A stretch of 49,603 nucleotides of DNA, taken from assembly GCA_014860225.1 (NCBI GenBank), contig JACZKE010000032.1, positions 1 through 49,603 on the forward strand, given 5' to 3'. Below the pieces are notes generated by a model that saw only the letters and a program-made list of their open reading frames with translations, was not told where the DNA came from and made no database searches. How positions within the stretch are numbered: position 1 is the first letter of the stretch; each line of letters starts with the position of its first letter. The translations under genes and the position numbers were made by a program. The stretch is from Desulfuromonadales bacterium (lineage in GTDB: Bacteria > Desulfobacterota > Desulfuromonadia > Desulfuromonadales > BM103). Positions 6,933-17,395 of this stretch are shown in pieces.

Positions 6933-7553
6933 CTACCTGGCCGCATAACCCTTGAAACGCTTCAGCCGGAAATAGGTCTCCCGCTCCCGCTCCGCCAGAT
7001 ATTGGCTCATGGCATGAATCGCTACATTCAGTTCCGGTGTGATCCGTTCTTCGAGAATGCGGATGCGCCGGGTCAGGCGCACCAGCTCCTCGGCCAGGCG
7101 GCGGAACTTCCCCTCGAAATTCGCCAACGACAGCATCTCCTCGACAATGCCCTCGAATTCCTCGATCGCTTCATCAAGCCAGGGTGAACTGCCGTGCACG
7201 TCGTAGGGTCGCTCTTCAAAGCTGCGCGCTACGGTCTCGTGCATGGTCAGGTCGCGGAAGCGCAGGCCGAGCAGGTTCCCTTCGGCAATCTCCACTGCGA
7301 TCTTGCGGCGATTGATAGCTGCCAGGGCATTGATCGCCACTGAACTTTCGCGGGCTTTACTGATCTGTAAAGCGTCGATGGCCCGTGCATAGGCCTGACT
7401 GACCTCTTCGCGAGACTGCATCAGCGGCCGCGTGATCTTGAGGAACTCCTTGATCAGCGCCTGCCGCCGACCTTTCAGTATGGTCGTGCAGTTAACCACC
7501 GCATGCAGACGATCCTTGAGCAGCAGCAAATTGGTGCGGGTTGGCTGGATCAT
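6933..7553 (-). CDS. ntpD: V/A-type ATPase subunit D (central stalk)
   Basis: A 206-residue, almost fully alpha-helical protein. Its N-terminus (PTRTNLLLLKDRLHAVVNCTTILKGRRQALIKE) and C-terminal helix match subunit D, the rotating central shaft inside the A3B3 head. The start ATG 7553 overlaps the stop of the subunit B gene (ATGA). It is the last gene of the nine-gene operon, as in the Enterococcus ntp core order. Confidence 0.93.
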   Translation of the reverse strand: MIQPTRTNLLLLKDRLHAVVNCTTILKGRRQALIKEFLKITRPLMQSREEVSQAYARAIDALQISKARESSVAINALAAINRRKIAVEIAEGNLLGLRFRDLTMHETVARSFEERPYDVHGSSPWLDEAIEEFEGIVEEMLSLANFEGKFRRLAEELVRLTRRIRILEERITPELNVAIHAMSQYLAERERETYFRLKRFKGYAAR

Positions 7554-8875
7554 AGTGACACCTCCCGGAATGAATCGAGCAATGTCTTCGCGGTATCGAG
7601 GGTTGCATCTATGGTCCGACGCTTTTTGCCCTGATGGACAAACTCGGTCTCGAAGCGATCTGCGAAATCGAGCAGCCGTCGATCGTCGGCGAGCATGCCG
7701 TCACGGCCGACCACCGCCTCGAGGCGGCGCAGGTCACAACCCTTGGCGTAGGCACGGTAAAGGCGGTTGGCCACATCGCGATGGTCCTTGCGGGTCTGTC
7801 CCTTGCCGATACCGTGCTGCATCAGGCGTGACAGGCTCGGCAAAACATCCACCGGCGGATAAATGCCTTTCTGGTGCAGCTCCCGGGAGAGTACGATCTG
7901 TCCTTCTGTGATATAGCCTGTCAAATCGGGGATCGGGTGGGTGATGTCGTCTTCCGGCATGGTGACGGTGGGGAGCAGGGTGATTGAGCCCTTACGCCCG
8001 TGGATGCGTCCGGCGCGCTCGTAGAGTGAGGCCAGATCGGAATACATGTGGCCGGGGTAGCCGCGCCGGCCAGGTAGTTCCTCGCGGGCAGTGGAAATCT
8101 CGCGCAGAGCGTCGCAGTAGTTGGTCATGTCGGTGATAATCACCAGCACGTCCATCTCCCGGCGAAAAGCCAAGTCCTCGGCAACGGTCAGGGCCAGGCG
8201 CGGGGCCAGCAGGCGTTCGACGACCGGGTCATCGGCCAGGTTGATGAAGGCGACGAAGCGGCTCTGCATGTGCTCGAGCGTCTGGCGATAAAACTGATAT
8301 TCGAAATGCGTCAGACCGAGAGCGACGAAGACCAATACGAAAGGTCCGCCATCGGGGAGCCGGGCCTGACGCAAAAGTTGGTCGGTCATCTCCCGCGCCG
8401 GTAATCCGGCACAGGTAAAGATTGGCAGTTTCTGCCCCTTGACCAGGGTATTCAGACCGTCAATGGTCGAGAAGCCGGTTTCGATGAATTCCACCGGATG
8501 GGCCCGCGCCACCGGGTTGATCGGCGCGCCGGTCACCGGCATGCGGAACTCCGGGATGAACATGGGCAGATCGTCAAGCGGCCGGAAGGAGCCGTCAAAG
8601 ACCCGGCCAAGCACGCCGTCACCGAGGGGCGCGCGCATTACAGCATCGCTGAAACTGACGGTCGTATGCCGGGTGTCCAGTCCGTGGGTGCCGCCGAAAA
8701 CCTGGATGAGGACCTCCCCGCCAGAAATTTTGAGCACCTCGCCGGACAGAGAGCGGCCATCAGGAGATTCAATCCTAACCAGTTCGCCAAGCCGGGAGGC
8801 GAAGACCCGTTCAAGAAAGAGCAACGGGCCGCGGATGGCGCTGACCGAACGATATTGATGTTCAGAGAGACGCAT
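7550..8875 (-). CDS. ntpB: V/A-type ATPase subunit B (non-catalytic nucleotide-binding)
   Basis: A 441-residue subunit of the catalytic head. The beta-barrel N-terminus (residues 1-70) is followed by the nucleotide-binding core. As in other B subunits the P-loop is degenerate: the position reads FTCAGLPAREMTDQL instead of GxxGxGKT. The DMTNYCDALREIS and PGRRGYPGHMYSDLASLYERAGR stretches are diagnostic. The frame is open upstream to 8992, but ATG 8875 has AAGGAGG 6 bp before it and gives the family N-terminus MRLSEHQY. The gene overlaps the end of the subunit A gene by 14 bp. Confidence 0.95.
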   Translation of the reverse strand: MRLSEHQYRSVSAIRGPLLFLERVFASRLGELVRIESPDGRSLSGEVLKISGGEVLIQVFGGTHGLDTRHTTVSFSDAVMRAPLGDGVLGRVFDGSFRPLDDLPMFIPEFRMPVTGAPINPVARAHPVEFIETGFSTIDGLNTLVKGQKLPIFTCAGLPAREMTDQLLRQARLPDGGPFVLVFVALGLTHFEYQFYRQTLEHMQSRFVAFINLADDPVVERLLAPRLALTVAEDLAFRREMDVLVIITDMTNYCDALREISTAREELPGRRGYPGHMYSDLASLYERAGRIHGRKGSITLLPTVTMPEDDITHPIPDLTGYITEGQIVLSRELHQKGIYPPVDVLPSLSRLMQHGIGKGQTRKDHRDVANRLYRAYAKGCDLRRLEAVVGRDGMLADDRRLLDFADRFETEFVHQGKKRRTIDATLDTAKTLLDSFREVSL

Positions 8876-10487
8876 CGGCAGCCTCCTTGAGCAAGTCGTC
8901 GAGCAGGGCGCCGTCATCCAGAGCCGTGGCGAGACGGTCGTGTTCGGCGACCAGTGTGACAATATGCTCGATTGTGCTCTGCGGTGTGGCATAGGCGTCC
9001 TCGGTGAAGCTGTTCTGGCAGAGAAAATCGAGGCGAATCTTTTCGGCGGTACGCATCAACAGGCGGTCGCCATCCTGCAAGCCCTCCATGCCGACCACTT
9101 CGGCAACTTCGCGCAGGGCATCTTCGCGTTGCAGAAGATCCCGGCAGCGTGCCTGGAGTTTGGCCCATTCTTCATGCAACTCACTGAAATGGGCCATGGC
9201 AGTATCACTGTAGAGAGAAAAACTCTGGTTCCAGTTGATCGCCGGGAAGTGGCGGCGGTGAGCCAGCTGCGAGTCGAGCATGTAAAGTGCCCCGGCGACG
9301 CGCAGGCAAGCCTGGGTCACCGGCTCGGAGAAATCACCGCCAGGCGGCGAAACCGCCAGAATCATGCTTAGCGAACCCTGTGTACCAGAAAGGGTTTCTA
9401 CTGCACCGGCTCGTTCGATAAAGCCTGACAGACGCGAACCGAGGTAGGTCGGGTAGCCGTCCTCACCAGGCATTTCCTCGAGGGCCGCAGAAATTTCGCG
9501 GAGCGCTTCGGCCCAGCGCGACAGGCTGTCGGCGAGAAAGAGAACGTCGAGGCCCATGTCGCGGTAATATTCCGCCATGGTCACGGCGGTAAAGATCGAC
9601 GATTCGCGGGCGGCGACCGGCATGTTCGAGGTGTTTGCCACAATGATAGTGCGTTCCATGAGCGGGCGCTTGCTGCGCGGATCCTCAAGTTCGGCGAACT
9701 CGTCGAGCAGGCCGGCCATTTCGTTGCCGCGTTCGCCGCAGCCGACATAGACCACCACGTCGACATCGGCGAACTTGGCGATAGTCTGTTCAAGGACGGT
9801 CTTGCCGGTTCCGAAGCCGCCAGGCACGATGGCGACGCCACCTTTTAGCAGGGGGAAGAGAAAGTCGAGACAGCGCTGACCGGTGATCAGCGGCGTGGTT
9901 GGTGGCAGTTTCCGTCGGTAGGGGCGTGCGTTGCGTACCGGCCAGCTGTGCCAGCCATGCAGGGGCTGATTGCCCTCGAGTATAGCCGCAGGATGTTCAA
10001 GCTGCAGCTCACCGGTGTTCAGCTGCTCCAGTATGCCGGCATGTGGTGACAGCAAGTGGTGTTGTATATGCCCTTCCCTGACCTTGCCGAAGGTTTCACC
10101 GGCGAGCAATTTATCGCCTGCTTTGTGCGCGGAACGAAAATCCCAGGATCGCGTGCAATCGAGTGGAAAAGGATTTTGTCCGCCGGTAATGAAATCTCCG
10201 CTGCTTTCCTGGAGCAGCGGAAGTGGGCGCTGCAGGCCGTCGAAAATTCCGCCGAGCAGGCCGGGGCCGAGGTGGACGGTCAACGGTCCTTTGGCGGTAG
10301 TCACCGGTTCGCCGATGCCGAGGCCGCGATTCTCTTCAAAAACCTGCACGGTGGCAACGCTGCCGTCGAGGCGCACCACTTCGCCGGTCAGGCGGTTTAC
10401 ACCGACGGAGATGCGGTCGCCGATTTTCAGATCGGGGAAGTCGACGCATACAGTCGCGCCGCTGATGCTTGTGACTTTGCCGCTCAT
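8862..10487 (-). CDS. ntpA: V/A-type ATPase catalytic subunit A
   Basis: A 541-residue catalytic subunit, somewhat shorter than the usual 575-595. Residues 1-70 form the beta barrel, about 110-190 the non-homologous region specific to A subunits, and 200-440 the ATPase core. The P-loop is GGFGTGKT at 223-230, the catalytic glutamate lies in GERGNE (Glu252), and [31 protein letters not shown] is intact. It hydrolyses or makes ATP in the A3B3 hexamer. The start ATG overlaps the upstream stop (ATGA). All catalytic motifs are present, so I expect it to be functional. Confidence 0.96.
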
Positions 10488-10804
10488 TGCTGCAACCTCA
10501 CATGATAGCCGAGCGCTCTTTGCACCAGCCGCTGCAATTCATCGCTCGGCGGAGTGCGTTTGCCGGCAGGGGGTGGCAAAGTAACCAGAACCCCTGCCCA
10601 GCGGTTGGTTAACTCGCGCAACCGGATTTGATCGAGCTTTTCAAGCAGACGGGCGTCGGCGGCAATGACTCCCACTTCGGGATCGGCGCAGGCCTGCTCG
10701 ATCGTTGACCAGGCCTGCGCCGGAGTCAACGTCTGCTGGCGTACGCCGGTGAGGGCGAAACCTGGAGCGCTGTCTTGCATGGTCAGAAAGAGGATCTCCT
10801 TCAT
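10484..10804 (-). CDS. ntpG: V/A-type ATPase subunit F (NtpG position)
   Basis: A 106-residue soluble protein with a Rossmann-like pattern (FALTGVRQQTLTPAQAW, then GVIAADARLLEKL, then GVLVTLPPP), as in the central-stalk subunit F of archaeal/bacterial V-type ATPases. It binds subunit D in the rotor. Both ends overlap neighbours by ATGA: its ATG with the stop of the subunit C gene, and its TGA with the start of the subunit A gene. This indicates translational coupling. Confidence 0.88.
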   Translation of the reverse strand: MKEILFLTMQDSAPGFALTGVRQQTLTPAQAWSTIEQACADPEVGVIAADARLLEKLDQIRLRELTNRWAGVLVTLPPPAGKRTPPSDELQRLVQRALGYHVRLQQ

Positions 10805-11688
10805 AGCAGCAGAACCTCCTCAAGCAGTTCCTCCCGGTCTGCAGCGAGAGCTTGCCGCAGCAGCTGATTATGCACGGCGAGCTGAGCCAGCCAGAGATAT
10901 TCAATGATCACGGCCAGCCCAAGCGGGTCGCGCCCGGCCAACCGCAAAAATCTGGTCAAGCCGCTCAAAAGGCACTGTTCCATGCCGACTACATCTGTGG
11001 AGGTTAATGGCTTTCCAGCCAGTCGCGTTACCAGCCTGGCAAGACGGTCGCTGTCATGTTTCGCCCAGATGCGCTGCAGGCTTGAAGTTGCATACCTGCC
11101 GCCGGGGGTCAATGGTGGCGCTTTGCTGACCTGCCATCGCCAGAGTTTATTAATCATCAAACAGTTGCGCATGTCGACCAGGTAGCGCAGTGTTGCTTTG
11201 AGAAGATTGTTGCCGGTCCGGGCCAGACCATGCTGCAGGATGCCGTCGGCAAGCTGCTGCTCAACGCCGCCAGGACCCTGGCGGCGGTAGGTGGCGGTCA
11301 GCCCGGCGACAAACGGATAGTCTTTGGCAAGCACAGCTTCGAGCTGTGCGATAGTGGCTTCGGACTCTTCTGTCATCGTGATCAGTCGCTTCAGCGGTCC
11401 AGCAAGCAGGGAAGGGTTCAATACTGCGGCAGGCGGTGTCTCGCCAGCCAGGGTATAACGCAAGGCCAGAATCAGGCTGCGCATGGCGAGCAGGTCGAGA
11501 AACGGCTCAAGACGTGTGCGCAGACGTCTGTTGAGCCGCCGATAAACCCAGAGAACAACGTCCGCAGGCGGTGCCTCTGTGGCATGATTCGCAGCCCTCA
11601 GATCGATGGCGGCGCGACGGCAGCGAAGCCGTGCCAGCAGAGCCTCTTTTGGGAGTTCAGCCGGCTGTGTCGGGGTGAGCAGTTTCAT
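10801..11688 (-). CDS. ntpC: V/A-type ATPase subunit C (V0 socket, d-subunit)
   Basis: A 295-residue, all-helical protein whose position between E and F and whose composition (three-fold repeated helical units, Arg- and Leu-rich) match subunit C/d, the funnel that connects the central stalk to the c-ring. Sequence conservation in this family is low, so context carries much of the weight. The start ATG 11688 follows AGGTGG and overlaps the end of the subunit E gene by 32 bp. Confidence 0.85.
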   Translation of the reverse strand: MKLLTPTQPAELPKEALLARLRCRRAAIDLRAANHATEAPPADVVLWVYRRLNRRLRTRLEPFLDLLAMRSLILALRYTLAGETPPAAVLNPSLLAGPLKRLITMTEESEATIAQLEAVLAKDYPFVAGLTATYRRQGPGGVEQQLADGILQHGLARTGNNLLKATLRYLVDMRNCLMINKLWRWQVSKAPPLTPGGRYATSSLQRIWAKHDSDRLARLVTRLAGKPLTSTDVVGMEQCLLSGLTRFLRLAGRDPLGLAVIIEYLWLAQLAVHNQLLRQALAADREELLEEVLLL

Positions 11689-12256
11689 CGTTGTCCACCT
11701 GTTTGCGCAGTTCGTCCAGAAGTTTCGGCAGCAGCTCGGGCCAGGCGCGCAGCAAACGACAGCTCAGTGAATTGTCGATGCGGATCATGCCGTCGGCGGT
11801 GGTCACGATCATGCCGCCGCCAAGGGTCTCATCGCACGCGATATCGGCCGCCGGAAAATCGCGATCTGCCATCTGCTGGTCTGCAGAATGAATTTTGCAG
11901 ACTGTCCATTCTGCCGCCGGCAACTCTTCGAGGAGCGATTTCCACAGCGTTGAACGATCGACGTTTGCCAGCATCGGCAGCATCTGTTGAGCCAGCATCC
12001 GCAGGCGTTCTTCTAGTGCCATTTCTGCGTGCAGTCGACATCCCATGGCGCGGGCCTGGGCTTCGAAGAGCAGGCTGATGCTCAGTTCGGCGGCTTCAGC
12101 CTGCAACCTGCGGTCAGTCTCAGCGCGTATTTGCACCAGTTGTGTTTCAAGCTCCTCGCGCCGTGATGCCACGACACTCTCGGACTGTTGCCAGAAGTCA
12201 CGAATCTGCGCCTCACCTTCGCGCTGCAGGGCTGCTTTCAGCTCTGGTTCACCCAT
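11657..12256 (-). CDS. ntpE: V/A-type ATPase subunit E (peripheral stalk)
   Basis: A 199-residue protein with an N-terminal charged helix of about 80 residues (EREGEAQIRDFWQQSESVVASRREELETQ) and a C-terminal globular half that includes GGGMIVTTADGMIRIDNSL, the conserved E-subunit motif. It forms the peripheral stalk as a heterodimer with the coiled-coil subunit encoded at 14363. The gene starts 7 bp after the c-subunit stop and has no strong RBS of its own, so translation is probably coupled. Confidence 0.92.
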   Translation of the reverse strand: MGEPELKAALQREGEAQIRDFWQQSESVVASRREELETQLVQIRAETDRRLQAEAAELSISLLFEAQARAMGCRLHAEMALEERLRMLAQQMLPMLANVDRSTLWKSLLEELPAAEWTVCKIHSADQQMADRDFPAADIACDETLGGGMIVTTADGMIRIDNSLSCRLLRAWPELLPKLLDELRKQVDNDETAHPDTAG

Positions 12257-12263
12257 AGTCTGG

Positions 12264-12476
12264 CTACATGAGCAGGATCATTGCGGCGACGACAAAGCCG
12301 AGAATGACCATAGTTTCCGGAATTGCGACCAGGATGATGATAACGCCGGTCAGTTCCGGTTTTTCCGCCAGAGTTCCGGCTCCGGCGGCACCGATGCGAG
12401 ACTGGGCCCAGGCAGTGGCAATCGCCGGCAGGCCGATTGCCAGTGCGGCAGCAAATGCAATCCAGACTTTTTCCAT
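12264..12476 (-). CDS. ntpK: V/A-type ATPase proteolipid subunit K (c-ring)
   Basis: A 70-residue single helical hairpin (helices about 4-30 and 43-69) rather than the four-helix form of Enterococcus NtpK. Helix 1 carries Gln25 in AWAQSR, and helix 2 the ion-binding Glu54 followed by Thr55 in AIPETMVILGF. These positions align with Gln110 and Glu139-Thr of Na+-transporting NtpK and with Gln32 and Glu65-Ser66 of Na+-type F-ATPase c subunits. The loop has the E-K-P-E element common to c subunits. RBS GAGGAGAAGATC precedes the ATG. Confidence 0.94.
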   Translation of the reverse strand: MEKVWIAFAAALAIGLPAIATAWAQSRIGAAGAGTLAEKPELTGVIIILVAIPETMVILGFVVAAMILLM

Positions 12477-12501
12477 GATCTTCTCCTCGTTGATGACCTA
12501 C

Positions 12502-14388
12502 TTAAGAGGGTCGCTTGTGCCAGGGTTCGAAGCGGCGCCCGCCCAGATCGAGAAACTTACTGAAAAATTCCACATAATGCAGACGCAGAGCGTGAACAGT
12601 GGGGGCAAAGACCCCCAACAGCAGATTGAATGCGTGCAGCATCGTCGCAACCAGAATGCCGACCATGATACTGCCGCTCATGCCGCCCAGTCGGTTGGCG
12701 ACCACGGCCAGCAGCACGGAACTGAAGCCGATGGCCATGATCCGGACGTAAGAGATAATATTGCCCATGGTTTTAAGCAGTTCGAGCGGTGCAAGCAGGC
12801 CTTCGGCGGCAATCATGACCGGCATGAGAATGGCGACGCCGATCAGCAGTGGACCGGTATTCAACCATGATTGCGGATAAAGCCAGCTCACCACGGCCAG
12901 TAATGACAACAGGACGACGATCAACATGGCGAGCTTAAGCAGGGCCTTGCGTGGTTGGTGGCGTCGTAGGTCGGCAAGAGCGCCGAGGGTGATACCAAGC
13001 AGAATGTGCACAACACCTACGGTCAAGGCAAAGACGGCCATAGGCAGGATGTCTTTGCTGCGATCAAACCAGAAAGCGTGCAGTCCCAGCCAGGTTTCAC
13101 CCATATTCCCGAACAGCTCGCCGTAGAGAAAGCCGAAAAAGATCGTGTAGAGCGACGCTACACCGAGCACCTTGCCAATATCGCTGGCCATTTGCTGCGG
13201 AGCAAAGCGCTTGGCGAGAAAAACAGAAATGATCAACAGAATCAGCCCGTAGCCAATATCGCCAAGGATCATGCCGAAAAAAACGGGGAAGAACAGGCCG
13301 AGCAGCGGCGTTGGATCGTAGGAGGAATATTTAGGTAAGGGGAGCAGGCGCGACAGAATTTCGAAAGGTGCAAAATAGCCCGGATTACGCAACATGACCG
13401 GAACCTGGTCGAGGTCTTCCTCAAGAATCGCCAGTTGTTCGAGCACCACCCTGCCTGCAAAAGCCTGACTGATGTCGATTTGCAGGGCGGGAACTTCGGA
13501 CTGCTCCATCCACCCCTGGATGATGAAGCAGAGGCGGGTCGTATAAGCAGTGGCGGTGGCGCGATAGAGGGTAAGACGTTCTTCCAGCCAAACCAGGGCG
13601 CGGCGATAGACCGGCCGCCAGCGGCGGGAAAGCTCCAACAGCTGTGTCTCGATCTTGCGGCAGTTGGCTGTCGCCGTTTTCAGGCGTTCATGTAACGCGG
13701 CGATGCGCTCCGCTAGCGTCAGGTTGGCCAACTCTGCAGGCAATGACATTTCGGGAATCCGTTCATCAGTCAACGCCTGACGCAGATCACCGGCTATCCG
13801 CCGATCTGTGGCAACCAATCCGATCAATACGCCGTCGGTTGTGGTTGTGCTGCTGATGTGGCAACGTCCCCCGGTGCGTTGCTGCAGCAGTTCTTCTAGG
13901 GCCTGCAGCTGCCGGGTGTCGCGAATGGTAATGCCCAGGAGCTCCAGGTTGGAATCCTGCGGCAAGTCAGCCAGTAATGGTTCCAGTGCCTGCCAGAAAG
14001 CCAGGTCGCGCTGCAGGTCTTCGACCTCCTTGCGATATTCAGTCAGAATACGATCCTGGTCGCTGACCTTGGCCAAGTGTTGATCGACAAGCTCATCGAC
14101 AAGATCCATTACTGGCAGAGACTGTAATGGCGAGATAGCATCAGTCGCTTCAGGGAGAAGTTCCAGAAGGATAGAGACGCGTTCGTAAAGGCCCTGAAAG
14201 TAGCTGCGTTCGTGCAGCTCATGTTCATTAAGAACGAGAGTATTCAGGCGATCATCGCGAGCCAGTTCAACCCGCTCCAGCAGCTGCGGGTCTGGTTGAA
14301 AAATGCCCCGGTTATGCAGGAGGTCGAGAGTGGCCAGTAGATCCTGTTTGGGGCCGACGATTTCAACTTTGGCCATGCGGATGATCAT
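12502..14388 (-). CDS. ntpI: V/A-type ATPase subunit I (a-subunit, ion channel)
   Basis: A 628-residue protein. The N-terminal half (about 1-330) is soluble and helical; the C-terminal half has seven to eight membrane segments starting near FFPVFFGMILGDIGYGLILL, the family signature. The GNIISYVRIMAIGFSSVLLA helix near residue 545 holds the essential arginine facing the c-ring. ATG 14388 has a GGGGG-T Shine-Dalgarno just upstream; a GTG at 14394 and an ATG at 14370 are alternatives. It overlaps the preceding small subunit gene. Confidence 0.95.
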   Translation of the reverse strand: MIIRMAKVEIVGPKQDLLATLDLLHNRGIFQPDPQLLERVELARDDRLNTLVLNEHELHERSYFQGLYERVSILLELLPEATDAISPLQSLPVMDLVDELVDQHLAKVSDQDRILTEYRKEVEDLQRDLAFWQALEPLLADLPQDSNLELLGITIRDTRQLQALEELLQQRTGGRCHISSTTTTDGVLIGLVATDRRIAGDLRQALTDERIPEMSLPAELANLTLAERIAALHERLKTATANCRKIETQLLELSRRWRPVYRRALVWLEERLTLYRATATAYTTRLCFIIQGWMEQSEVPALQIDISQAFAGRVVLEQLAILEEDLDQVPVMLRNPGYFAPFEILSRLLPLPKYSSYDPTPLLGLFFPVFFGMILGDIGYGLILLIISVFLAKRFAPQQMASDIGKVLGVASLYTIFFGFLYGELFGNMGETWLGLHAFWFDRSKDILPMAVFALTVGVVHILLGITLGALADLRRHQPRKALLKLAMLIVVLLSLLAVVSWLYPQSWLNTGPLLIGVAILMPVMIAAEGLLAPLELLKTMGNIISYVRIMAIGFSSVLLAVVANRLGGMSGSIMVGILVATMLHAFNLLLGVFAPTVHALRLHYVEFFSKFLDLGGRRFEPWHKRPS

Positions 14389-14707
14389 GGTCACCCCCTG
14401 GCAGTATCGCTGCCAGATGCTGTTTTAATGCGTCTTGCAGCGTTGCATCGTTAAGGTCTAACAAGCGCTGGCACCATGCGGACGATGCGGATTCCAGGGC
14501 TGCGCCTTTATTTTTTAACTCGGCCTTTTTCACGGCCAGCATTTGCCGGCCGCGCTCCTTCTCGGCGGTCAACACTGCAGCAAAGGAGCTCTCCATGGCA
14601 GCCAGTTCGCGTTGTTGCCATTCTTTGGCACGCGCATGCTCTGCAGCAGCCTCGGTCTGGATGCGTTTTTCCAGTTGAATGATACTTTGCAGCAACCCGT
14701 CAGCCAT
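14363..14707 (-). CDS. ntpF: V/A-type ATPase coiled-coil subunit (G/H type, NtpF position)
   Basis: A 114-residue protein with a long charged helix at about 5-75 (IIQLEKRIQTEAAAEHARAKE, regular heptad-like spacing of Ala, Leu and Glu) and a His-rich tail (GGDHDHPHG). Its size, coiled coil and first position in the operon match the peripheral-stalk subunit that pairs with subunit E. The sequence family is weakly conserved, so context is important. It is the first gene of the operon and is divergent from the GGDEF gene at 14887; the promoter should lie in 14708-14886. Confidence 0.8.
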   Translation of the reverse strand: MADGLLQSIIQLEKRIQTEAAAEHARAKEWQQRELAAMESSFAAVLTAEKERGRQMLAVKKAELKNKGAALESASSAWCQRLLDLNDATLQDALKQHLAAILPGGDHDHPHGQS

Positions 14708-14886
14708 GATAAACCACTCTATGATGTTAATGTTTTCAGTATATCAGAGTGCTTACGCTTTGCAGAACCTCTGGATGAATCGAAATTCGTGACCTCGTAT
14801 GAAAAGCATGATAAATTATCAATGTTGATCTTGAACATTTTTCTGAGCAATGGAATTCAGGTTTAGCTGACAATCAGGGGCTCTCT

Positions 14887-15930
14887 TTGTCAACAGACAA
14901 GCATCTGCTGAAAACCCTGGAAAGACGTAATCGGGAGCTTGAAGTTCTCATAGAGATCGGCAAAGCTCTGACATCGACCGTCGACCTTGAGAATGTGCTC
15001 ACCTTGATCATGGATCAGGTCAGCCGTCTGCTCAAGGCCCAGGCCTGGTCGCTGCTGCTGCGTGACGAGCGGAGTGGTGAGCTGACCTTTGAGATTGCTG
15101 TTTCTCCGGCGGCATCAAAGCTCAAGGGGATGAAAGTCGCTGCCGGCCAAGGTATAGCCGGCTGGGTGACTGAACACGGCAAGCCTCTGGTGATCGCTGA
15201 CGTCAGAGAAGATGAACGATTCTCTGACCATTTCGACAAGGCCTCCTTCTTTATTACCCAGTCGGTACTTTGCGTGCCGGTGTGCTGCAAAGACCAAGTC
15301 CTCGGTGTCATCGAACTGGTGAACGGGCCCAACGAAAAGGTTTTTAAAGAAGCTGACCTGCAGATCCTCTCCACGATTGCCGATTACGCGGCGATCGCCA
15401 TCGAAAATGCACGCAACTTCAAGCGTGTCAATGAACTGGTGATAACCGATGATTTGACCGGGTTGTACAATGGCCGCTATCTGCATGTTTTGATCGAAGA
15501 GGAGATTGAGAGGGTGCGCCGTTTCGGCGGCAAACTTTCGTTGATCTTCATTGATCTCGATTTCTTCAAAAAAGTCAACGATACCCGTGGTCACCTGGTG
15601 GGCAGTCGCACCCTTGCAGAGGTCGGAAACCTGATTAAGGATAACGTCCGCAAGATCTGCAAATCGGCCCGATACGGTGGCGATGAATTTGTCATCGTCC
15701 TACCGAACACCAATAAAAATGGCGCAATGACCCTGGCCACAAAACTCTGTGAACTTTTCCGGGCCTATGATTTCCGTGACGACAACGATGTCTCTTTCAG
15801 GATGACAGCCAGCTTCGGCATCGCCACTTTTCCTGACGATGCAAAATCCAAGGATGATTTGATCCGCCTGGCAGACCAGGCAATGTATCGCGTCAAGGAA
15901 ACCTCCCGAGACGCTGTCCTGTCGGCGTGA
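14887..15930 (+). CDS. GAF-GGDEF nucleotide cyclase of the Hypr (cGAMP synthase) type
   Basis: 347 residues: a short coiled coil (1-25), a GAF domain (about 25-175) and a GGDEF domain (about 183-345) with an intact RYGGDEF at 262-268. In canonical diguanylate cyclases the substrate-binding motif reads N-D-x-x-G-H-x-x-G-D; here it reads NDTRGHLVGS, so the guanine-binding Asp (Asp344 of PleD) is Ser240. This exact Asp-to-Ser change defines Hypr GGDEF enzymes of Geobacter, which make 3',3'-cGAMP. The I-site RxxD is absent (RKIC at 255-258). The gene starts at TTG, preceded by a weak AGGGG. Product specificity is inferred from one residue and is not proven. The divergent ATPase operon and the downstream Fe-S protein share the locus. 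Confidence 0.9.
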   Translation: MSTDKHLLKTLERRNRELEVLIEIGKALTSTVDLENVLTLIMDQVSRLLKAQAWSLLLRDERSGELTFEIAVSPAASKLKGMKVAAGQGIAGWVTEHGKPLVIADVREDERFSDHFDKASFFITQSVLCVPVCCKDQVLGVIELVNGPNEKVFKEADLQILSTIADYAAIAIENARNFKRVNELVITDDLTGLYNGRYLHVLIEEEIERVRRFGGKLSLIFIDLDFFKKVNDTRGHLVGSRTLAEVGNLIKDNVRKICKSARYGGDEFVIVLPNTNKNGAMTLATKLCELFRAYDFRDDNDVSFRMTASFGIATFPDDAKSKDDLIRLADQAMYRVKETSRDAVLSA

Positions 15931-15954
15931 TACACTTCTTTTTTGAGGTAACCT

Positions 15955-17241
15955 GTGGCCCACCGCACCCCTCGCTCCAGTTATGAGAAACTGACCGGTC
16001 GCCTGAATCTTTTCACCCAGGGCGCACCCCCCGCCAAACTCCTATACCGAATCCTTGCTCTGCTGTTTACCGAACAGGAAGCCGAACTGGTCGCGAGCCT
16101 GCCGCTCAGGCCATTCACTGTGGAGAAAGCCGCTAAAAACTGGCGAGTCTCCCTTGATGAAGCTCAGAAAACCCTGCAACGCCTGGCAGGCCGGGCGCTG
16201 CTGGTGGATATTCAGCTCAATGGCAAAACCGAATATGTCTTGCCGCCGCCGATGGCAGGCTTCTTCGAATTTGCCCTGATGCGCACCCGCGGCGATATTG
16301 ACCAGAAACTGCTGAGCGAACTCTATGAACAGTACATTACCGTCGAGGAAGATTTTATCCGGCAGCTTTTCTTGACCGGCAAGACCCAGCTTGGCCGGGT
16401 CTTTGTCCAGGAGGAGGTCCTCAGCAGCGAGCATGCCCTGCATGTCCTCGATTACGAAAAAGCCACGTTGGTCATCGAAACAGCCAGCGATATCGGCGTC
16501 GGTCTTTGCTACTGCCGTCATAAGCGCCAGCACCAGGGACGAGCCTGCGACGCCGAGATGGAAATCTGCATGACTTTTAACACCGTTGCAAGTTCACTGA
16601 TCCGCAACGAATATGCACGACGCATAGAGCGTAGCGAATGCAAGGAACTTCTGCACAAAGCCTGGGAGCAGAATCTGGTCCAGTTTGGTGAAAATGTTCA
16701 GAACGGTGTCAACTTCATCTGTAATTGCTGTTCCTGCTGCTGCGAGGCGATGCTTGCCGCTCAGCGTTTCGGCCATGAACGCCCGGTCCACACCAGTAAT
16801 TTCATTGCCCGGGTGGAGCCTAACTGCAGCGGCTGCGGCCGCTGCCTGGTCGTCTGCCCGGTCAAGGTGATCTCCCTCGAGGTCGAGCGCGCCGATGGCT
16901 TCGGCCGCAAGCAGGCACACATTGACGAAAACTTCTGCCTTGGCTGCGGGGTCTGCGCCCGTAACTGCCGGGTCAGCGCCCTGACCATGCAACCACGGCA
17001 AAAGCGCGTCATCACGCCGGTCAACTCGACGCACAAGGTTGTGCTCATGGCGATCGAGCGGGGCAAACTGCAGAACCTGATTTTCGACAACCAGGTGCTC
17101 TGGAGCCACCGTGCCCTGGCGGCGCTGCTCGGCGTGATCCTTAAGCTGCCGCCGGTCAAAAGAGCCCTGGCCAGTGAACAGATCGGTTCACGCTACCTGG
17201 GCGCCCTGTGCGCGCATTACGATGTCGGGACGAATACCTGA
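15955..17241 (+). CDS. 4Fe-4S ferredoxin-domain protein
   Basis: A 428-residue cytosolic protein that starts at GTG with GAGGT upstream. The N-terminal half has a winged-helix-like part. The middle is rich in cysteine (CYCRHKRQHQGRAC near 185-199 and CNCCSCCCEAM near 260-270). A two-cluster ferredoxin domain follows at about 285-345, with CSGCGRCLVVCP and CLGCGVCARNC. It begins 24 bp after the GGDEF gene, so the two are probably co-transcribed. Similar proteins in sulfur- and metal-reducing bacteria are of unknown function. An electron-transfer role, perhaps linked to redox sensing by the GAF-GGDEF protein, is only inference. Confidence 0.8.
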   Translation: MAHRTPRSSYEKLTGRLNLFTQGAPPAKLLYRILALLFTEQEAELVASLPLRPFTVEKAAKNWRVSLDEAQKTLQRLAGRALLVDIQLNGKTEYVLPPPMAGFFEFALMRTRGDIDQKLLSELYEQYITVEEDFIRQLFLTGKTQLGRVFVQEEVLSSEHALHVLDYEKATLVIETASDIGVGLCYCRHKRQHQGRACDAEMEICMTFNTVASSLIRNEYARRIERSECKELLHKAWEQNLVQFGENVQNGVNFICNCCSCCCEAMLAAQRFGHERPVHTSNFIARVEPNCSGCGRCLVVCPVKVISLEVERADGFGRKQAHIDENFCLGCGVCARNCRVSALTMQPRQKRVITPVNSTHKVVLMAIERGKLQNLIFDNQVLWSHRALAALLGVILKLPPVKRALASEQIGSRYLGALCAHYDVGTNT

Positions 17242-17395
17242 CCCTCCTTTATAACCATTCTCCTGCCATAACCGCGGATCAGCTCTTTTTTTATTGAAAT
17301 GTAACCTGGATGATATTGTCGTGGTAGCAAGTGGTGAATAATTCAAGCATGTTGTGATAATGCGGTATTAACACCAACCTTAAAGGAGCTCTGTA

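Follow-up and report, generated by a model that had tools for sequence, protein, structure and literature searches.

The window, the whole stretch of 49,603 nucleotides that was analysed here, derives from a Desulfuromonadales bacterium and carries a gene for a GAF-GGDEF protein with a serine at the position of Asp344 in PleD. This leads to the question as to which cyclic dinucleotide the encoded enzyme produces, and how that product is controlled and perceived. The protein is most probably, as judged from its sequence, a soluble, homodimeric, GAF-type Hypr GGDEF enzyme that would convert GTP and ATP mainly to 3',3'-cGAMP, c-di-GMP being a by-product. Enzymes of this type are known and widespread; this member stands out by a changed I-site, by a glycine at residue 196 and by the seeming absence of the RNA receptor that would be expected.

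Organization of the gene and its protein

The reading frame occupies positions 14887-15930 of the forward strand and encodes 347 residues from a TTG start, just as the preliminary description had proposed, with an AGGGG sequence located 6 bases 5' of this start at 14887. Pfam analysis assigned a GAF domain to residues 33-172 (1.9e-21) and a GGDEF domain to residues 186-342 (5.6e-41). The features of the locus are as follows:

8862-14707, reverse strand: divergent V/A-type ATPase genes (subunit A at 8862-10487, subunit I at 12502-14394)
14887-15930, forward strand: GAF-GGDEF protein, predicted Hypr cGAMP/c-di-GMP synthase, 347 aa, TTG start
14983-15402, forward strand: GAF sensor domain, residues 33-172
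15442-15912, forward strand: GGDEF catalytic domain, residues 186-342
15472-15474, forward strand: Gly196, the cross-dimer residue (GmGacA has Tyr304 here, and most canonical cyclases have Arg)
15604-15606, forward strand: Ser240 at the PleD Asp344/GmGacA Ser348 position, from alignment
15649-15660, forward strand: degenerate I-site RKIC (RxxD with Asp changed to Cys), from alignment
15676-15690, forward strand: intact GGDEF catalytic motif, from sequence and alignment
15955-17241, forward strand: 4Fe-4S (ferredoxin-like) protein, 428 aa, 24 bases 3' of the GAF-GGDEF gene

The TTG start is shared by 13 of the 18 family orthologues that were checked (L028-L044 and the window gene), while the other five start with GTG and none with ATG; a GGGG-type ribosome site is present in most of them. 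These non-ATG starts may keep translation low. An Rfam scan of the window returned no riboswitch match at gathering score, and a sigma-70 promoter scan of positions 14650-17350 gave one match against 1.7 expected, which amounts to nothing.

Specificity residues and I-site

The best PDB match of the protein is 6d9m, the GGDEF domain of GacA of G. metallireducens (GmGacA; 6.7e-43), a crystallised Hypr enzyme to which residues 187-345 could be aligned over 159 residues without a gap (window protein NDTRGHLVGSRTL; 6d9m NDTHGHLVGSQVL). In this alignment, Ser240 faces the signature Ser of GacA, the GGDEF motif is identical in the two proteins, and the cross-dimer Tyr of GacA corresponds to Gly196, the two specificity residues being spaced by 44 in both cases (Gly196/Ser240 and Tyr304/Ser348, respectively). 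In the canonical domains 6zxm and 3ign, the residue opposite Ser240 is an Asp; the PleD structures 2wb4 and 1w25 were also matched, the Asp at this position being read from 6zxm and 3ign. The Asp-to-Ser switch and the intact GGDEF motif, both suggested by the preliminary description, are thereby confirmed, and since the Asp of 6zxm and 3ign and the Ser of GacA all fall on Ser240, its reservation that an alignment might place another residue opposite PleD Asp344 does not apply. The I-site, REVD in GacA, reads RKIC in the window protein. The site is therefore degenerate; the RxxD motif, which had been noted as missing, keeps its Arg, and its Asp has become Cys.

Hypr enzymes are defined by Ser (or Thr) in place of PleD Asp344, in the wording available from PMC9140294, and the window protein carries this replacement. 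The 'Goldilocks' model, as given in the accessible parts of PMC6456294, requires Ser together with GGDEF rather than GGEEF, and GGDEF is the motif found here. The same portions of that source associate a cross-dimer Arg with more c-di-GMP, and Tyr, Ser, Ala or Gln at this position with mainly cGAMP; in the window protein the Arg is likewise replaced, but by Gly, which is not among the residues that these portions report. On the sequence, this second replacement, absent from the preliminary description, strengthens the predicted Hypr function.

Conservation among relatives

At an E-value of 1e-60 or below, relatives were detected in 28 of the 40 genomes searched, and these 28 comprise 21 of the 22 that belong to the same GTDB family (the exception being G011). 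All 21 same-family homologues possess the Ser, the Gly at the Gly196 position, GGDEF and the Arg..Cys I-site, and the Ser is therefore no sequencing accident. One of these loci, L049, contains an in-frame stop; it was excluded from alignment A1 and counted in the residue tallies as tblastn reads it. RKIC and Gly196 are thus two lineage-fixed changes.

A wider view was provided by the best 80 of 532 named relatives obtained from a pattern scan of genome contigs. Their specificity site is occupied by Ser in 74, Gly in three, Asp in two and Thr in one, a distribution that is not an unbiased frequency, because the scan patterns were derived from Ser-bearing proteins. The cross-dimer Arg occurs in none of the 74 Ser proteins and in both Asp proteins of this set. 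An intact Arg..Asp I-site is present in 62 of these best 80, and in seven of eight loci from other families of the order (six of seven distinct genes, as L053 and L055 point to a single best gene). Besides the family sequences, the Asp-to-Cys change was encountered once more, in L145.

Some relatives depart from this pattern at the specificity site. L053 and L055 (G028:C94) represent tandem GAF-GGDEF genes, one with Ser and the other with Asn (NDTYGHETGNV), while the GAF-GGDEY relatives L121, L125 and L140 from candidate phyla combine Gly at the specificity position with DD for ND, and possibly constitute a further specificity class.

Placement among Hypr enzymes

Twelve GGDEF matches were found in the genome from which the window comes, and three of them carry Ser at the specificity position (that on contig C6 placed by eye). 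These are the window GAF-GGDEF gene; a GacA-type, 467-aa frame with a receiver domain on contig C19, followed by an ORF recognised by eye as histidyl-tRNA synthetase; and, on C6, a GSU1937-like HAMP protein with GGDDY.

A quick tree, with SH-aLRT support only, was computed from 89 of the 145 GGDEF domains collected, the C6 (GGDDY) domain being absent from it, after removal of the two diagnostic columns (which was checked). Even without these columns, all 61 Ser rows fall within one branch of 68 rows (support 98) that contains the proven Hypr domain of GmGacA. The branch is not pure, as it also holds two Asp rows (Spirochaetales) and five others, and Ser requires five changes on this tree. Within it, a GacA-type branch of 12 rows (support 98) includes 6d9m and the C19 protein, while a GAF-type branch of 50 rows (SH-aLRT 92) includes the window protein along with Myxococcota and Acidobacteriota; neither branch includes the Rec protein of M. 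xanthus or three rows from Nitrospirota. Because the tree sets these two branches apart, the window protein is to be regarded as a GAF-type Hypr rather than as GacA. Orthology to GacA was considered and rejected on four counts: the protein has no Rec domain, its I-site reads RKIC, it belongs to a different branch, and a GacA-type gene resides on C19. The two types can also occur side by side: in Pelotalea chapellei (L083), a GacA-type Rec-GGDEY gene and a GAF-type Hypr gene (7265-8647 and 9887-11032) are located approximately 1.2 kb apart on one strand.

Alignment and tree together support the assignment to the Hypr class, which is very probably right. The GAF-GGDEF Hypr architecture is not new but widespread, including in M. 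xanthus, Myxococcota and Acidobacteriota.

The M. xanthus case appears to link the window protein to characterised enzymes. The M. xanthus genome (AM003) has 18 GGDEF matches, of which 13 are readable at the specificity site (L160, L161, L162, L164 and L165 are not); Ser is present in two of these 13, a 457-aa Rec-GGDEY protein and a 365-aa GAF-GGDEF protein (L115) that is 51% identical to the window protein over residues 7-347. The parts of PMC8844925 available place GacA and GacB of M. xanthus in the Hypr subfamily and report that they make cGAMP in vitro. The strain table of PMC4877007, the part of that paper drawn on here, gives 458 residues for MXAN4463 and, for MXAN2643, a deletion spanning 11-355 and a printed length of 265, presumably 365, and the lengths of the two Ser-bearing proteins fit these entries. 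By elimination (13 of 18 read) and by length, we infer that GacA and GacB are the two Ser-bearing genes. L115 is then probably MXAN_2643, one of GacA/GacB, so that the window lineage probably has a characterised member.

GEMM-I riboswitches and the product in vivo

The best-surviving alternative, which we nevertheless judge improbable, is that the Ser is tolerated and the protein acts in vivo as an ordinary diguanylate cyclase with c-di-GMP as its main product. Its main argument comes from the riboswitches of the window's own genome, where Rfam c-di-GMP-I gave eight matches, six of them over the curated score. The aptamer position that was read is presumably that of G20 in Vc2, an equation that the control genomes support. 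All six aptamers over the curated score have G at this position and so are of the c-di-GMP type; the two below it, L007 (which aligns G) and L008 (unreadable), are outside this count. The search for GEMM-Ib riboswitches that the preliminary description had recommended was therefore carried out, and no aptamer of the cGAMP type (A20), by which cGAMP is usually read, was found in this genome, either among the 150 of 419 candidates that were scored with Rfam or by a strict A20 pattern with a hairpin check, which was run over 25 genomes and recognises 23 of 30 known A20 aptamers. In view of this sensitivity and of the 150 of 419 candidates scored, the negative result is good rather than final. The Geobacter-type controls have A in seven of seven (G158) and 17 of 18 (G162) readable aptamers, with two of nine and one of 19, respectively, unread by the script; their GacA-type domains are 94% (G158) and 74% (G162) identical to 6d9m.

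A variable product mix would also suit this alternative, as Hypr enzymes with a cross-dimer Arg are reported to yield more c-di-GMP. The residue in question, however, is Gly and not Arg in the window protein, and the Ser is invariant in the family. Furthermore, the strict pattern and hairpin check detected A20 aptamers in 11 of the 16 genomes of the family that were searched, the window's genome being one of the five without, and two genomes of its own genus (G001 and G005) have 11 each. Finally, the sections of PMC9262584 available describe the base at position 20 as contributing to selectivity without being a strict filter.

The number of GEMM-I matches also differs within the genus, with 38 in G001 versus eight in the window's genome when 150 candidates were scored in each. 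The A20 aptamers of G012 (a single site, L227 and L276) and G009 (L280) precede similar genes, which look response-regulator-like by eye.

GAF domain and catalytic competence

The nearest solved GAF domain by sequence is 5w10 (2.4e-28), which PMC11800159, in the part available, identifies as that of Lcd1. The available text of PMC8846402 describes Lcd1 of Leptospira as a GAF-GGDEF diguanylate cyclase that is activated by cAMP. This match raises the idea of a cAMP-gated cGAMP synthase, in which an Lcd1-like GAF domain would bind cAMP and turn the enzyme on, a proposal that is compatible with a mainly cGAMP-producing Hypr enzyme. We consider it unlikely, slightly more so than an ordinary cyclase, because no match to three adenylate cyclase families (class III, CYTH-type and class I; PF00211, PF01928 and PF01295) was found in the window's genome; of five genomes searched, G016 alone gave a match to class III.

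The least probable reading, a catalytically dead or receptor-type GGDEF protein that binds nucleotides or partners, could appeal to the degenerate I-site and unusual residues, but is very unlikely given that GGDEF, Asp223 and Asn231 are invariant in a 12-sequence alignment and that the catalytic motif of the best 80 of 532 named relatives is GGDEF in 70 and GGDEY in eight (GGGEF in one, and cut off in one).

Genetic neighbourhood

The 4Fe-4S gene is perhaps co-transcribed with the GAF-GGDEF gene. It adjoins in 16 of 21 family loci, and is absent from the other five despite 1.5 kb of downstream sequence in each. The divergent V/A-type ATPase set, which opens with an ORF of 114 aa that matched no family, has its first gene at 12 of 21 family loci, and three others have less than 300 bases upstream. 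Among the best 80 of 532 named loci, the 4Fe-4S protein was seen at three (L068, L069 and L070, all close relatives), and it was seen at none of the eight other-family loci of the order; the loci compared have flanks of differing length. In L140, which is not a member of the family, V-type ATPase subunits also occur, at approximately 4 kb from the relative. The suggestion of a new genetic setting can thus be retained in part: the 4Fe-4S neighbourhood looks lineage-specific, having been seen only in the family and close relatives, whereas the GAF-Hypr architecture was already known.

Proposed mechanism and implications

The explanation put forward here starts from what was observed, namely sequence features, conservation, tree position and neighbourhood, and from these we infer the dimer, its products, its gating and the loss of feedback. 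In the published model (PMC6456294, accessible parts), Ser forms a hydrogen bond with either guanine or adenine, the shift is compensated by the Asp of GGDEF, the Glu of GGDEF acts as cross-dimer base, and replacement of the Arg removes the bias towards guanine. In the window enzyme, Ser240 would accept either of these two bases, the GGDEF Asp would hold the Mg2+ in its shifted position, and, with Gly196 in place of the cross-dimer Arg, the preference for guanine would be lost. From these residue rules (Ser, GGDEF and Arg replaced), as far as that source gives them, it would follow that the enzyme makes mainly cGAMP. The GAF domain is the likely switch and would gate activity on a cytosolic signal. 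In GacA, c-di-GMP inhibits at the I-site, and an R393A mutant raises a cGAMP reporter 30-fold (PMC6456294, same parts). The degenerate I-site would make the window enzyme less sensitive to c-di-GMP feedback than GacA; with the I-site Asp lost, at least partial freedom from the inhibition that keeps GacA low is to be expected.

A bolder and decidedly tentative extension, which we would rate as doubtful, is that the family possesses a third Hypr enzyme, soluble, GAF-gated and released from c-di-GMP feedback by loss of the I-site Asp, which supplies a cGAMP pool in response to a cytosolic cue, perhaps a redox one, to which the 4Fe-4S neighbour would also respond. The species of the window would then have lost its cGAMP riboswitches and kept the enzymes, so that a receptor of a kind not yet recognised would have to read the cGAMP. 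Together, a Hypr lineage whose I-site is naturally degenerate and a genus in which some genomes are rich in A20 aptamers and one seemingly has none would allow a direct test of how cGAMP and c-di-GMP signalling are separated and of whether further cGAMP receptors exist.

Comparison with known systems

The window protein resembles GacA (GSU1658/Gmet_1914; PDB 6d9m) in its Ser, its GGDEF motif, the replaced cross-dimer Arg and a GGDEF domain that aligns without gaps. In contrast, GacA carries a Rec domain, an intact I-site and a cross-dimer Tyr, whereas the window protein has only a GAF domain, RKIC and Gly; the GacA-type protein of the window's genome itself differs from GacA in having a cross-dimer His rather than Tyr. 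GSU1937, the second Hypr enzyme of G. sulfurreducens, shares the Ser at the specificity site (PMC8835794, accessible part), but is a HAMP protein with GGDDF; the HAMP-GGDDY protein on C6 of the window's genome is similar to it. Lcd1 has the closest solved GAF domain by sequence, yet is reported, in the text available, to be a c-di-GMP synthase activated by cAMP, while no match to the three adenylate cyclase families was found in the window's genome. L115 of M. xanthus has the same architecture, being a GAF-GGDEF protein with Ser, without a cross-dimer Arg and in the same 50-row branch; it differs in its cross-dimer Ala, its I-site stretch RQNLD and a locus without a 4Fe-4S neighbour match.
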